Part shown: positions 660 through 50,225 of the stretch, piece by piece | How positions within the stretch are numbered: the first letter of the stretch is position 1 | Layout: every line of letters begins with the position of its first letter | Origin: Pyropia haitanensis | Taxonomy: Eukaryota; Rhodophyta; Bangiophyceae; Bangiales; Bangiaceae | Direction of reading: 5' to 3' | NCBI GenBank assembly: GCA_008729055.1 | Contig: SDUX01000002.1 | Coordinates: 2,383,874-2,447,873, forward strand | Length of the DNA: 64,000 nt | Notes under the pieces: model-generated | Told to the model about the DNA's origin: nothing | What the model saw: the letters and a program-made list of their open reading frames with translations, nothing else | The model's database searches: none | Translations under genes and position numbers: made by a program

Positions 660-763
660 GCCCGGGTAGCGTAATGGATACAACCCACCAAACGCGCTCG
701 CCTCCTACTGCAGGTCAGCACGACGACAGCGAGAGATTGCGGGTTCGAGTCCCGCCCTGGGTG
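660..763 (+). tRNA. tRNA-Arg(CCT) with anticodon-loop intron and apparent D-loop intron
   Basis: A full cloverleaf can be drawn. Acceptor 660-666 pairs with 756-762 (two G-T pairs) with discriminator G763. D stem 669-672 pairs with 692-695. Anticodon stem 697-701 pairs with 729-733. T stem 739-743 pairs with 751-755 around a TTCGAGT loop. The A box TAGCGTAATGG (667-677) and B box GGTTCGAGTCC (742-752) are intact. The anticodon loop starts C-T-CCT-A at 702-707 and is followed by about 20 extra bases (708-727) at the canonical 37/38 site; AGG at 712-714 can pair with the anticodon, as in normal intron-containing pre-tRNAs. The D loop (673-691) is 19 nt, about 11 more than usual; 681-691 looks like a second, ectopic intron. 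Mature size would be 73 nt. The sequence resembles eukaryotic tRNA-Arg(CCU). Confidence 0.88.
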
Positions 764-1404
764 TCGATCCGTACCATTTTGCACATTTTGACGAGGCTGA
801 CAGCAGAAATTTGAACTCCAGTCCCTGCGGTCCCACCCAGCTGTGTACGGCTGGCGACTCCAAACTTGACCGCCGCCCGCGTGCCAACGGAGGGGGGGGT
901 AGGTGGACCACCCACTCCCACGCCAGCGCGGCCCTCACCCCCCGGCAGTGGCGTGGCGGCCACCACGGAACGAAAAGAGAAAAAAAGAGGAAGGCGGGCC
1001 ATCGTCGCGCCCGCCCGGCCGCGCGCGTCCGCCGCCCGCCAACCGCCCCCGCCCGCGGGCCGGTCCGTCGGCTCGGCCACCCGCGCGGTGGGGAGTGGTC
1101 GGGTGGGCACCGGCACGCCCATCCCCTCCGCCGCCCTCTCCCCCCCCCCATCCTCCCCCGCTCCCCGCTGCTGCTCCCTGCACCGCCGCCGCCGCCGCGG
1201 CCGTGACCATCTCCACCCCGCGACGTCCGGCGCGGCGACCTCCCCCCCCCCCCTCCCCGCCGTCGCTGAGGTGCTGTCCTTGTCCCTCCTTTCCTCGCTT
1301 CCCCCTCCATCCACACCCACGGTGGTCGGCCGCACCCCCCCCCCCCCCGCCGCGCGAGCGGGTCCCCGCGGCCGCGCCGGCGACGGCGGCGGCGGCTGGG
1401 GGCC
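764..1404. other. Spacer and 5' region of the MED12-like gene
   Basis: Starts with the tRNA trailer, then becomes C-rich with many short C runs. Several long ORFs overlap here on both strands but are low-complexity shadows. It probably contains the promoter and 5' UTR of the next gene; no TATA box is seen. Confidence 0.35.
777..780 (+). terminator. RNA polymerase III T-run terminator
   Basis: TTTT fourteen bases after the tRNA 3' end, the standard Pol III stop; a second TTTT follows at 786-789. Confidence 0.6.
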
Positions 1405-27977: not shown

Positions 27978-30792
27978 ATGGGCGTCCGCCGCGTCACCGC
28001 GTCGCGGGGCCTCGTCGACGCCCTCCCTGCCACGTCGCTGCGGGACCATCGGGGGCGACCGCCCGAAGGGCTTGTGAGTGACGATGAGGACGCGACCTCG
28101 TCCGACACCCTCCGCGTCACCGCGCGGCTGCCCTTCCCCCGCCACATTTGGCTGGACCGGCCGCGGCCGGGCGCGAGCATAGACACGCTTGGTGTGTCCA
28201 TGTGTGCCGCCGCATCGCCGGCGGGCTCCTTCCCGTCTGTTGGAGACCGCGGGGAGGCGAGCAACTCGTCGGCGCCACCCGGCGGGCTGCGGCTGCCCGG
28301 CGAGGCGGGGTCGTCGGCCAGCTCGCGCGCGTCGCGGCCGGCGCCACTGTCGCCCGTGCCGCCATCGCCCGCGCCGCCGTCGCCCGTGCCGCCGTCGTCC
28401 GCGCCGCCGTCGCCCGCGCCGCCGTCGCCGGCGCCGCCGTCGCCGGCGCCGCGGGCGCCCGAGTCGCCGTCGGCGGGACGCCCATCGGCGGCGCCCGCGG
28501 CGCACCAGCCGCCACGGCATCGCCGCCCTGCGGCGGAGGTGGGGGGCGGCAGCGGCGCGCTGGCCGCCGCCGTTGCTGCCGTTGCCGCCGCCGCCGATCG
28601 GCCCGCCGCGTGGGCGCCCACCCGCTACAGCCGCAGCTCGGATGCGATTCCAAAGCTGGGCGACGAGACCGTCCCGGTCATGGGCCTCTCGGAGATTGAG
28701 TACCTCCGCAACATCTTTAATGAGGTGGAGGCGGCGGGGCGGGGGTGGGTGGATCTGGAACAGTTTTGCGACTTGTGCAACCTCCTCCTCGTCCGCGGCG
28801 CGTCCTCCACCGCAGCTGCCGTCGCGACGGGCACGCCCGACCTGGCGGCGGAGCCGGTGGACGACTCGTTTGACCGGCTCACCCTGGACTTTCTGTTTCG
28901 GCTGGTGGACTCGGGCCGCCAAGGGCGCGTCACGCTCCGCGACTGGATCCGCGCGTCGGCCGTGTTTTGCTATGGCCGCCTGCCCCACAAGCTGCCCTTT
29001 GTGTTTCGCTTTGCCGCCGACGCAGACCCCGAGACGTCTGAGCTGCTGATCTCCGAGCAGGCTGTGCGGATGCTCATCCGGGCGGTCTTTGAGGTGGTCT
29101 GCATACCGCCGGGCCACACGTGGGGCATTGCGCGCACGCCGCCGCCACCCGGGCGGTGGCCAGAGACGTACCACGCGTCGGGGGCGCTTTCCAACGAGCA
29201 CAACCCCGACACGCTGTGGGCGACGGCGCAGCAGCTGATGCAGTCTGATGGGCGTATGACGTACGCCGCCTATCTGACGTGGGCGGAGCGCGAGCCCGCC
29301 TTCTCTGAGTGGGTCGGCTGGGTGGGCTCCCGCGGCCTCCGCGCCATCAACGTGGTGCAGTCGGCGCGGGAGCGGGCGCAGTTTGTGGCAACGATGGAGG
29401 CGATTGGGTTTGCGAAGGACGAGCTCGCAGCGCTGCCCGCACCGGTACAGGGCGTCAATTGGTCGTATGGGAAGCACTCGTCACCGGCGCAGAGCCCCCA
29501 CAACTCGGCGGGGCAGTCGTCCGCGCTGTTGTCGTCGTTTGAGATTGATTTCAAGGCGCTGTCGGTATGCTTGTGTGCGGGGGTACAGGCCTCAGGTGAG
29601 CTCTGTTTTTATGTTTTTGTGTGTGACTTTGGTGTGTTCATGTGGGTCTGCACCGCTTGGGTCCTCATGCTAACTCCTTTTGTCTCTCTCTTGGGCTTTC
29701 CTCCCCCCCCCCCGATATCCTCCTTCGCAGCTGGAGCGCCTTGTTGGGGAAGGTACTTTTGCTGAGGTGTGGTCGGGGCGGTGGCTCGAGGCGCCCGTCG
29801 CGGTCAAGATCTTCAAAGACCGCTCTTCCGCGGTGGCCATGTACCAGTTGCGCAAGCAGCAGAACCAGCAGGGCGGCCAAGGGGCCCTCCCTGACGGTTC
29901 ATCTGACTGCACGCCCGCGGACGGGGATGCCGACGACGCGCGGGCCGACGTTGAGCGCAGCTTGGCACCGTCAGGTGGCGCGGGTAACTCGACGTTTGAG
30001 AGCCTGGCCGGCTCAGAGTCGTCGCCTCGGTCGGCAGGGCAGAGCACCTTTTTTCTGCGCGAGGTGGAGCTGCTCAGCAACCTTCGCCACCCCAACGTGC
30101 TGCTCTACATGGGTGCCTGCGTCAAGAATACATCGCCCCTGTGCATTGTGTCGGAGCTGGTCACGGGGGGCTCCCTCCACGACGCGATCCACAGCAACAG
30201 GAGGTTGAACTTTACCCCGCTGTTGAAGATGCGGATATCCCTGGACGTGGCGCGCGGCATGCTCTACCTCCACTCACTGGTGCCTGTGCTGCTCCACCGG
30301 GATCTCAAGTCGTCCAACATTTTGGTAGACACGGGGACGCCTGCGGACGCGTCGGTGGAAGGGAGTTCCCCCTCCCGTGTGCGTGCGGTGTTGTGTGACT
30401 TTGGCCTGTCGCGCCAAGACGCGACGGGCACCCACCAGAGTGCATCGGGCCAGCCCACGGCGTTGGTGGGCACCCTCCTGACGATGGCGCCGGAGATTGT
30501 CCGCTCTGAGCGCTACACGTCGGCTGCGGATGTGTTCAGCTTTGGCATGGTGCTGTGGGAGTTGTGGACGGGGCAGGTGCCGTACCGGGGGCTGATGCCC
30601 GCGCAGCTGATGTTTGAGGTGGCCATCAAGGGCGCGCGGCCCAACTTGGGGCCCTCCTCTGGGGTGCCCCCCTCCGTCGCCGCCGTCATCCGCATGTGCT
30701 GGCAAGGGGAGCAGACCCAGCGGCCGCGCTTCCTGGAGATCGTGCGACGGCTACAAAAGATTGCGCGCGAGGAGATGGGCGTGACCGTTTGA
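27978..30792 (+). CDS. Raf-like (TKL) protein kinase with N-terminal EF-hand-like domain
   Basis: About 882 residues in two exons (27978-29564, 29731-30792). ATG 27978 is the first in-frame ATG. Residues 1-210 are Pro/Ser-rich with (AP)PSP repeats. Residues 230-430 form an EF-hand-like helical region: EIEYLRNIFNEVEAAGRGWVDLEQF and FLFRLVDSGRQGRVTLRDW resemble EF-hand pairs, and QSDGRMTYAAYLTW another. Loop residues are mostly degenerate, so Ca2+ binding is uncertain. The kinase starts with FEIDFKALSLERLVGEGTFAEVW, where E-I-D-F-K is typical of Raf-like kinases. It carries VAVKIF (Lys), LREVELLSNLRHPNVLLYMGAC, HRDLKSSNILV, CDFGLS and MAPEIVRSERYTSAADVFSFGMVLWEL, so all catalytic residues are present. 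An insert of about 70 residues separates VAVK from helix C. The activation segment has GTLLTMAPE rather than GTPxWMAPE. It is probably a cytosolic Ser/Thr kinase. Confidence 0.9.
29565..29730 (+). other. GT-AG intron in the kinase gene (166 nt)
   Basis: Donor CTGTCG|GTATGC and acceptor CCTTCGCAG|CTGGAG. Splicing is in phase 0 and joins FKALS to LERLVGEG, giving the expected start of a Raf-like kinase domain. Confidence 0.92.
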
Positions 30793-47900: not shown

Positions 47901-48451
47901 GGCCGGCAGGGTGCCGCCGCTGATGACAAGTGCCAACCGCACACTGGCCATCGGGTCGGGTCGGGGCTGGCCCCGAGTCCTTCCCCGCCCTTCCCCGCCC
48001 CTCTCTCCCCAGCCACGTGCTCTGCAGCAGCCAGCCGCAGCTAGCATAGAGGCGGCTTTGATTGGCGTGGCGGGCAAGCCCAGCGCGCGGACAGCGCCAG
48101 ACGTGCGGCTGCCCCCCCTCCCCACCCCCCCCCCTCTCCCCACGAAGCCATTTCGGCAGGCAAATAGCGTGTTGCTACGCTCGGCACGAAGACCGCCAAG
48201 ACGCTCCCGCCGTCCCCCCCCCCTCTGGCAGTGCGTGCTGACGTGCGCTGCCCGGCTCGGGGCCCAGATTGGCGGGGAGGCGCGGGGGGGGGCGTGGGCC
48301 TTGTACACATGCGCGGTGGCCATGGAGGCGGGTCGAGCCGACTGCCAGTGGCATCCCGACTGGACTGGGTCGCAGCAGCGGGTTGGTCTGTGCGGCCACG
48401 GGGGCAGCCATCGCCCCAGGTTCTCCCCCCCTCCGCACCCCCCCCACCGCC
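44922..48451. other. 3.5-kb gene-poor region
   Basis: Mixed base composition, richer in A+T than the coding blocks, with many short ORFs in all frames and no domain or consistent codon pattern. The ORF at 47120-48016 (-, 298 codons) is the longest but looks random. No inverted-repeat ends, tRNA boxes or tandem repeats stood out. It may be decayed transposon sequence. Confidence 0.35.
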
Positions 48452-48458
48452 TATAAAT
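48452..48458 (+). promoter_or_regulatory. TATA box of the C2H2 gene (TATAAAT)
   Basis: TATAAAT directly after a C-rich block, 313 bases before the ATG at 48771, with a C/T-rich leader between. It is the clearest core promoter in the window. Confidence 0.6.
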
Positions 48459-48770
48459 GCTACATTGCGCCGCCACGGGGACGCACCAGAAGCCCATCAC
48501 GTATCCGCTGAGAGCCACCAGGGAAGGTCGACCGACGTCGAGCGCCGTTACGCTGCCCACTTCCTGAGCTCCCCCCCAACCCCACCTCACGCACACACCT
48601 GTACCGTTGCAGCCCGCCGCAGTTCACCGACGCGCTCATCTGCTGCCCCCACTCCTCTCCCCTTCACTCCGCCTTGTATCTCCTGCCAAAGAGGACCCGC
48701 TCATCGCCGCGCCTGCCCTCTGCGCAGCTCCTCCAAGAGACCATCGCCAGTGTGCTGCTTCGACGCGACG

Positions 48771-49578
48771 ATGGACCTCCTCCTCGACGCCGTGCCGCTC
48801 TCCCTCTACGACGACGAGCTGCTAGCCGGGTTTGAGCACGCCGGCGACGACCCCCTCGGGGGCGCCGCCCTTCCCCGCTCCCCGTCGCTGTCGCCGCCGC
48901 CGTCCTCTGAGCCGCCGCCCACCGTCGTCGGTGTGGCCGGCCCGGCCGCCGACGACCGCGCCGGCTGCGACACGGCGTCACCAGAGGCGGCGGCCGGCCT
49001 TGCCGCCGACGTGAAGTTGGCGCTTGCCCACCTGAGCGCCACCGTGCCGCCGCCGCCGCCCGTCGACTGCTTCTTTGCGGCCGGCCCGCCGCCAAAGGTG
49101 CCAGCCGTGGCGGCGGCGGCGACGGTGGCGGCGGTCGCACCCCCTCCGCCCGCCATCGCCGAAGCCGCCGTCGCGTGGGCCGCGTCTGCCCGCGCTGACG
49201 CCGCCGCCGCCACGGGAGTGGCACCCCCCCCCCCGGCGTGGCCGCCGGCGGCGTCCGCTTCTTCTGCTGCCGTCGTCGCCGCCGCTGCCGAGGCGACCCG
49301 CCAGCCGTGGGTGGTGGCTTCCCCACCGCCGCCCGCTGCACTGGAACGACCTGCCGCGCCGTGGACAGTGCCAGTAGCGGTACCGCCGGCATCAGCGGGC
49401 ACCTGTGCAGACGCGGGGATTGTCTACGCGGGATCACCTGACGGCAGCCGCAGCGACTGGGCGGCGGCGGCCGCCGCGTCACCCCGCAGCCCGACGAGCG
49501 TCTTTTACGGCGGCCTGGGCGGCACGCCGAGCACCGCCACGACGCCAACGGCGCCAGCAACAACATCAACGGCGGCCA

Positions 49579-49620
<42 letters not shown>

Positions 49621-50225
49621 CTGGCGGGCCCGCCTTCCCCGCTGTCTCCCCCCCCACCCCCTCCTTCACTTCGGCCATCACGGCGGCGGCGTCTTCCCCG
49701 TCGGCAGTGGACCCCGCGCTGGGCGCCACCGCCAGCGGCGGGGCCGCCACCACGACGGCCGCGTCGGTCCCCCCCCCCCGGCGGTACCCGTGCCACCTGT
49801 GCGCGCGCTCCTTTACCGAAAACTCCAACCGCAAGAAGCACGTCGCGACCGTCCACCTCAACCTCCGCGGCTACGCGTGCGCCCGCTGCGACGCGGCGTT
49901 TGCGGCGCGGTGCAACCTCGCCAAGCACGTCGCGACTGTCCACCAGCGCTGCCGCCCGCACGCGTGTGGCGTGTGTGGGAGCGCGTTTGGGGAGCGCAAC
50001 AAGCGGGACAAGCACCTGCGGACGGTGCACGGGGGGGAGAAGCCGCACCCGTGTGGCTCATGCGGGCGGCCGTTCGGCCAAAAGTCCGACCTGCTGCGCC
50101 ACGTCCGCGTCGTGCACGAGGCGCACCGGCCGCACGCGTGTGGGGTGTGTGGCAAGGGATTCGGGCGCCGCGGCTCGCTGGTGCACCACATGGCGCAGGC
50201 GCACCCGCCGCCGCCGGCCACCTGA
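48771..50225 (+). CDS. Five-finger C2H2 zinc-finger protein
   Basis: 484 residues, uninterrupted, from ATG 48771 (GACGATGG) to TGA 50223-50225. The N-terminus MDLLLDAVPLSLYDDELLAGFEHAG is acidic and hydrophobic, like a short activation-type segment. Residues 60-335 are Ala/Pro-rich and probably disordered. Five consecutive fingers fill 340-478: YPCHLCARSFTENSNRKKH-ATVH, YACARCDAAFAARCNLAKH-ATVH, HACGVCGSAFGERNKRDKH-RTVH, HPCGSCGRPFGQKSDLLRH-RVVH and HACGVCGKGFGRRGSLVHH-AQAH. Each has C-x2-C-x12-H-x3-H spacing and short H-link-like joins, so sequence-specific DNA binding in the nucleus is expected. Target genes cannot be predicted. There are no introns; a T12 run at 50303-50314 lies in the 3' region. 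Confidence 0.92.

Follow-up and report, generated by a model that had tools for sequence, protein, structure and literature searches.

A two-intron tRNA-Arg(CCT) gene of the red seaweed Pyropia haitanensis with a predicted D-loop mini-intron, one of a genome-wide family at a single ectopic site

Ectopic introns of eukaryotic tRNA genes have been described for the red alga Cyanidioschyzon merolae, for the nucleomorphs of cryptophytes and chlorarachniophytes, and in one case (27/28) for Ostreococcus lucimarinus (PMC3978253, PMC9602550, PMC4090602, PMC4033280, PMC8752119, PMC3594237), and they have been treated as a rarity of a reduced extremophile and of relict nuclei (PMC3978253, PMC4090602). 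In C. merolae, tRNA-Arg(CCT) is encoded by a permuted gene that also carries an ectopic D-loop intron, of 27 nt at 14/15 (Soma et al. 2007, 2013; PMC3978253, PMC9602550), the 37/38 intron is always the last to be removed, and a Sen2-Sen34 dimer has been suggested to serve the ectopic sites (PMC3978253, PMC9602550). The nucleomorph of Guillardia theta has genes with two or three introns each, located in the D and T arms and 3-24 nt long, whose excision was established by RT-PCR (Kawach et al. 2005; PMC4090602).

The present work concerns a tRNA-Arg(CCT) gene with two introns in the nucleus of a free-living seaweed. Comparison of gene copies makes it very likely that the 11-nt segment in its D loop is a real, spliced intron, belonging to a family of mini-introns that occupies a single ectopic site across the genome (after 20/20a, before 21). 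The locus resembles C. merolae in its red-algal host, in the D-loop intron of Arg(CCT), and in the presence of Sen2 and Sen34 (PMC3978253, PMC9602550), but it differs from that system in the use of one shared D-loop site (20/21) by introns of 10-27 nt, in the multi-copy nature of the genes, with D-insert-free twins for some of them, and in an element composed of C-A and a 3-nt spacer instead of the strict hBHBh' motif. The Guillardia nucleomorph is likewise of red-algal lineage and has D- and T-arm introns (PMC4090602), but it is a relict endosymbiont genome in which many introns are without a defined bulge-helix-bulge (BHB; PMC3978253), whereas the seaweed nucleus holds gene families. Crenarchaeal non-canonical tRNA introns also occupy D-arm sites and include relaxed BHB forms (PMC3978253), whereas the genes considered here belong to a eukaryotic nucleus and carry Pol III boxes. 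Canonical eukaryotic 37/38 introns are matched by the second intron of the gene; the D-loop intron is placed elsewhere and has to be recognised through a different geometry. Overall, the evidence supports grouping these introns with the ectopic ones of C. merolae in a single class, the new aspects being the seaweed host, the one preferred site, the many copies, some with intron-free twins, and a fixed-distance element of its own. A literature search over titles and the beginnings of abstracts retrieved no report of such tRNA introns for Bangiales or seaweeds, an earlier mention being possible.

The analysed stretch of DNA, hereafter the window, comprises 64,000 very GC-rich nucleotides on a 7.56-Mb contig of an assembly of 52.9 Mb in 136 contigs. 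The original prediction of a tRNA-Arg(CCT) at 660-763, with all stems paired, intact boxes, pairing between anticodon and anticodon intron, and about 11 surplus D-loop bases at 681-691, was borne out in each of these respects. The Rfam tRNA model spans the gene end to end (47.2 bits against a gathering score of 29, E 5.8e-07 with the whole window searched) and presents the surplus in both the D loop and the anticodon loop as insertions in its alignment. The acceptor (GCCCGGG/CCTGGGT, 7/7 with two G-T pairs), D (GCGT/ACGC, 4/4), anticodon (CTCGC/GCGAG, 5/5), and T (GCGGG/CCCGC, 5/5) stems are complete, and 704-706 are able to pair with 712-714. Because both introns sit between the two boxes, the A box and the B box are both read uninterrupted (Table 1). 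With its cloverleaf, boxes, and terminator, 660-763 has the features of a functional nuclear tRNA gene and would be classified as such. Removal of 11 and 20 nt leaves a mature form with the D loop AATGGATA; for this spliced form, a DNA search that can miss places found one place in the genome. The boundary of the D-loop insert is ambiguous by one base, 680-690 and 681-691 yielding an identical mature RNA; the former was chosen since GGAT precedes and AACGC follows the insert in Arg(TCG) (L028) and most other Arg genes. The minimum-energy fold of the precursor, when unconstrained, is not a cloverleaf.

Table 1. Features of the two-intron tRNA-Arg(CCT) gene in window coordinates.
Feature	Coordinates	Strand	Evidence
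tRNA-Arg(CCT) gene, two introns, 104 nt; mature form 73 nt	660..763	+	Rfam RF00005, 47.2 bits
Acceptor stem 5' strand, pairs with 756-762	660..666	+	sequence, Rfam alignment
A box (positions 8-19), uninterrupted	667..677	+	sequence
D stem 5' strand, pairs with 692-695	669..672	+	sequence
U16-G18-G19, able to pair with intron 685-687	675..677	+	register test; local fold with D stem forced
Predicted ectopic D-loop intron, 11 nt, between 20a and 21	680..690	+	comparison with D-insert-free genes of other isoacceptors, same genome
Intron CCA (-6 to -4), 3 nt ahead of the 3' boundary	685..687	+	motif count
D stem 3' strand	692..695	+	sequence
Anticodon stem 5' strand, pairs with 729-733	697..701	+	sequence
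Anticodon CCT	704..706	+	sequence; ARAGORN on spliced form
Canonical anticodon-loop intron (37/38), 20 nt	708..727	+	anticodon-intron pair C702-G725 (C32 with -3)
B box	742..752	+	sequence; B-box pattern search
TTTT, probable Pol III terminator	777..780	+	sequence

A Pfam search of 16 open reading frames of the window detected C2H2 zinc finger and kinase domains only, in reading frames at 48231-50225 (C2H2 zinc fingers) and 29680-30792 (protein kinase domain).

A D-loop insert at the same site is present in at least 31 genes of the 52.9-Mb genome, covering ten anticodons. Besides the gene in the window, these encode Arg(TCG) (L028), Arg(ACG) (L073, L083, L094, L098, L151), Arg(CCG) (L086, L087, L089, L095, L096), Trp(CCA) (L074, L075, L204), Lys(CTT) (L063, L065, L068), Glu(CTC) (L108, L109, L116, L117, L167), Cys(GCA) (L125, L133), Tyr(GTA) (L172, L181, L203), and His(GTG) (L184, L186, L187). 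The search for further D-loop introns that the original prediction had proposed yielded 30 additional genes, and because of this recurrence the observation exceeds what chance would give. Three pairs (L095/L096, L116/L117, and L186/L187) are identical including 45-nt flanks, leaving 28 unique D introns of 10-27 nt. None of the D-intron genes read here is permuted. A second insert occurs in 14 of the 31 genes, located at 37/38 in ten (the window gene, L094, L098, L151, L116, L117, L125, L172, L181, and L203), in the anticodon stem in the three His genes, and in the T loop in Trp L204.

These counts are a lower bound, derived from four B-box pattern searches among the matches listed (136 stretches examined), supplemented with 4 stretches at DNA matches and 48 Rfam matches. 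The latter came from a genome-wide Rfam tRNA search, which is no census since 63 of 471 candidates were scored and the tRNA of the window was itself missing from the list. Of 140 stretches, 120 were parsed with model R1 and all with a cloverleaf script; manual parsing was used for the His genes, L204, and L205. The counts leave out L090 (an Arg(TCT)-like gene of 160 nt whose acceptor stem is poor) as well as the degenerate L140 and L205, and the census is without Leu, Pro, Phe, Met, and others; no D insert was seen in the other species that were read, e.g., Val, Thr, Asn, Gly, Ser, Ile, and Gln. As a separate observation, L090 (50-209, minus strand) combines a possible D insert with over 60 nt of inserted sequence downstream of the anticodon, its acceptor pairing poorly as judged by eye. 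The B-box searches also encountered a satellite and a candidate repeat. A satellite of approximately 689 bp with a B-box-like GGTTCGACCCC in each unit forms long arrays near contig starts (C2, C3; L044), and Rfam scans of L044 and L057 gave no match. The sequence GGTTCGARTCC occurs 147 times versus 26 for a reversed control, with GGTTCGAATCC in 82 of 100 among the matches listed, and it is perhaps a dispersed repeat because the three loci scanned (L033, L034, L036) had no Rfam match.

The D introns carry a position-specific signal near their 3' boundary. C-A at -5/-4 is found in 19 of the 28 unique introns (2.8 expected; maximum of 10 in 10,000 shuffles), and in 20 of 28 the nucleotide before G18 together with G18 is able to pair with -4/-5 (6.7 expected; maximum of 16 in 10,000 shuffles), although this register had been noticed on 24 introns beforehand and the test was thus run on a pattern already seen. 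Two His introns and that of Trp L204, which were placed later by the same convention, also fit the register. A count of every dinucleotide at 16 positions peaked at 18 of 24 (maximum of 12 in 3,000 shuffles), with the Tyr boundary set one base off its final position. The alternative register (-5/-6) is used in 7 of 28 introns, which taken alone is no more than chance (6.7), and its users are all the Lys and Tyr introns, whose D loop is one base longer, and Cys L125. Both registers together account for 27 of 28 introns (13.5 expected; maximum of 22 in shuffles), Cys L133 fitting neither and Cys L125 the alternative only. In the Lys genes, exon C17 covaries with an intron G at -5. By analogy to the C32-G(-3) pair of anticodon introns, a rule by which A14 would pair with intron -3 was also considered and dropped by eye, -3 being a T in 8 of 24 introns.

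The anticodon introns of the same genome display the counterpart already known for such introns, position -3 being a G that could pair with C32 in 16 of 17 (4.9 expected; maximum of 12 in 5,000 shuffles; exception Ile L149), and the second intron of the window gene qualifies as canonical by both its location and this pair. Two further ectopic sites were encountered. In the His genes, the anticodon stem is interrupted in its 5' strand (28/29) by 24 nt, the removal of which restores TTACG/CGTAA; L184 without both inserts is recognised as tRNA-His by ARAGORN, and the unconstrained minimum-energy fold of the spliced His form is not a cloverleaf. In Trp L204 (109-207; Rfam 40.3 bits), an 11-nt T-loop insert (59/60 or 60/61) breaks the B box, beside the D-loop intron.

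A tRNA-splicing endonuclease is encoded in the genome. The nearest solved relative of the L080 product is Sen34 (E 2.3e-13) and that of the L081 product is Sen2 (E 1.6e-08), and Pfam PF01974 was found in both. Of three matches to the Sen2 protein, a single one is named, from Pyropia vietnamensis, with 68% identity; this identity and the 52.9-Mb assembly place the genome outside the Cyanidiophyceae, and together with the high GC content of the window the identity points to a red alga of the Bangiales. The phenomenon is thereby extended, as the original prediction expected of a two-intron tRNA outside the Cyanidioschyzon group.

Among the alternatives to splicing of the D introns by the Sen endonuclease through a BHB-like element, excision along another route, e.g., by a separate nuclease, survives best, and we regard it as unlikely. 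Neither a strict BHB (3-nt bulges, 4-bp helix) nor hBHBh' was found at the junctions, and the geometry of the D introns, with a helix of 2-4 bp located 3 nt before the 3' cut, corresponds to a relaxed form only, which favours such a route. So does the ensemble probability of G18 pairing anywhere in the intron, which is not above that of shuffles (0.695 versus 0.756), on account of which the signal is taken to lie in the fixed register and not in the strength of pairing. Moreover, a D intron disturbs the tRNA body, from which Sen complexes of the yeast type take their reading (PMC3978253), and the splicing of the 3-nt introns of the Guillardia nucleomorph is described as open (PMC4090602). Against another route stand the position specificity of the motif and its parallel with C32-G(-3) in the anticodon introns, the presence of both Sen2 and Sen34, and the precedent of C. 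merolae, which together point to the Sen endonuclease.

The strongest evidence that the D inserts are introns is provided by the Lys(CTT) genes. All six are identical over their 73-nt exons, while L010 and L011 are free of inserts, L063, L065, and L068 have D-loop inserts of 13, 17, and 23 nt, and L066 has 16 nt at 37/38; their 45-nt flanks reach pairwise scores of at most 20/90 (at most 19 for shuffled flanks). D-insert-free genes of the same isoacceptor, in which the mature D arm is read directly, were also found for Arg(ACG) (L085), Glu (L104/L105), Cys (L019), and Tyr (L202, which fixes the boundary in L172 and L181), so that such twins are known for five isoacceptors. In Arg(ACG), 5 of 6 genes have identical exons, in Glu 4 of 7 with one change in the other three, and Cys L133 has two changes. 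For Arg(CCT), with its one place in the genome, and for Arg(CCG), with an insert in all five places, the DNA search, which can miss places, returned no D-insert-free match, and the same search found three nuclear-type Trp genes carrying the insert, a fourth match (L205) being degenerate. Because no D-insert-free copy was at hand, the boundaries in Arg(CCT), Arg(TCG), Arg(CCG), Trp, and His were set by analogy. Joining of the exons gives a standard tRNA and insert-free homologues exist, the latter for Arg(CCT) being other isoacceptors. The original suggestion of a second, ectopic intron in the window gene is supported by what the related genes show: identical exons with and without insert, one site, inserts of variable sequence and length, and a position-specific motif.

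As for the Trp species, insert-free tRNAs L013 and L018 sit on the short contigs C83 and C76; these, together with a Thr tRNA (L001) on the same short contigs, presumably are bacterial or organellar, and the tRNAs of C76 and C83 are possibly contamination or organelle DNA. The plastid is probably absent from the assembly because the large subunit of RuBisCO had no match in it. The 5' half of the D arm, GCAAAATTGG, is common to Arg(ACG) L073, L083, L085, L094, L098, and L151 and to Trp L074, L075, and L204, and this D arm is left with only two standard D-stem pairs.

Retention of the inserts as long, tolerated D loops is very unlikely. ARAGORN with the intron option, applied to 15 of the 31 genes, named the right isotype for two with the D insert kept (L125 and L204), which would be compatible with tolerance. 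It failed for the remaining 13, named all 15 when spliced and none when unspliced, and for Arg(CCT) made no call on the precursor or on the form with the D insert only, calling tRNA-Arg(cct) once both were removed; with bacterial settings it made no call within the window. In addition, the inserts vary from 10 to 27 nt and have little in common beyond the C-A motif although the exons are identical or nearly so, their removal results in a standard D loop, and the five insert-free isoacceptors show the tRNAs in that form, all of which argues for excision rather than retention.

Still slightly less probable is that these genes are dead or dying pseudogenes with short insertions, as supposed for single-copy D/T-arm insertions elsewhere (PMC4090602): the degenerate L205 and L140 and the atypical L090 indicate that pseudogenes do exist here, and most two-intron copies among the 20 loci scanned fail Rfam at E 0.01, but the exons hardly change, the D-stem pair 13-22 of Arg(CCG) shows a compensatory change between the two sides of the intron (T-A in L087 and L089, A-T in L095 and L096, which are identical, and a mismatched T.T in L086), Arg(CCT), Arg(CCG), and nuclear-type Trp were found as insert-bearing genes only, and terminators are mostly kept. 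Of 29 D-intron genes tested, 26 (all except L109, L116, and L117) have TTTT in the 40 nt downstream and 0 have AAAA; TTTT is found in 3.8% of random window 40-mers, but is also frequent in upstream flanks (12 of 26).

With splicing as the preferred reading, the following course is proposed. Pol III would transcribe the gene from its intact internal boxes, and in the precursor the 3' part of the D intron would pair with U16/17-G18-(G19) to form a relaxed BHB-like element beside the D stem. The Sen2/Sen34 endonuclease may then cut after 20a and before 21, and a ligase would join the halves, after which formation of the elbow would allow the ordinary ruler to remove the 37/38 intron. The D intron is probably removed before the 37/38 intron because its pairing holds G18/G19, which are needed for the mature elbow. 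On balance, we lean slightly towards a broader view, in which site 20/21 in this multicellular red seaweed has been colonised many times by independently arising mini-introns of 10-27 nt, gained or lost between otherwise identical copies and recognised through the intron helix with U16/17-G18(-G19) and the 3-nt spacer; splicing would have to begin with removal of the D intron, leaving the elbow free for the Sen ruler at 37/38, and the His 28/29 and Trp T-loop sites would point to ectopic splicing as a general feature of red algae and not a hot-spring oddity.

Rfam alone recognises few two-intron copies: at E 0.01, one of eight D-intron genes was recognised (L125) among the 20 loci scanned, while L203 (47.2 bits) and L204 (40.3) passed the Rfam cut-off. 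Ordinary tRNA annotation can miss or mislabel such genes, as ARAGORN did with all 15 unspliced forms, and published numbers of red-algal tRNAs may be affected; in one such study, red-algal tRNAs were counted with default tRNAscan-SE, and the word D-loop is absent from its main text (PMC10496412). Finally, with at least 31 genes, some of them with intron-free twins, the seaweed offers a natural laboratory for the gain and loss of tRNA introns, and the set would be useful for the investigation of Sen recognition away from 37/38 and of the order of tRNA splicing.
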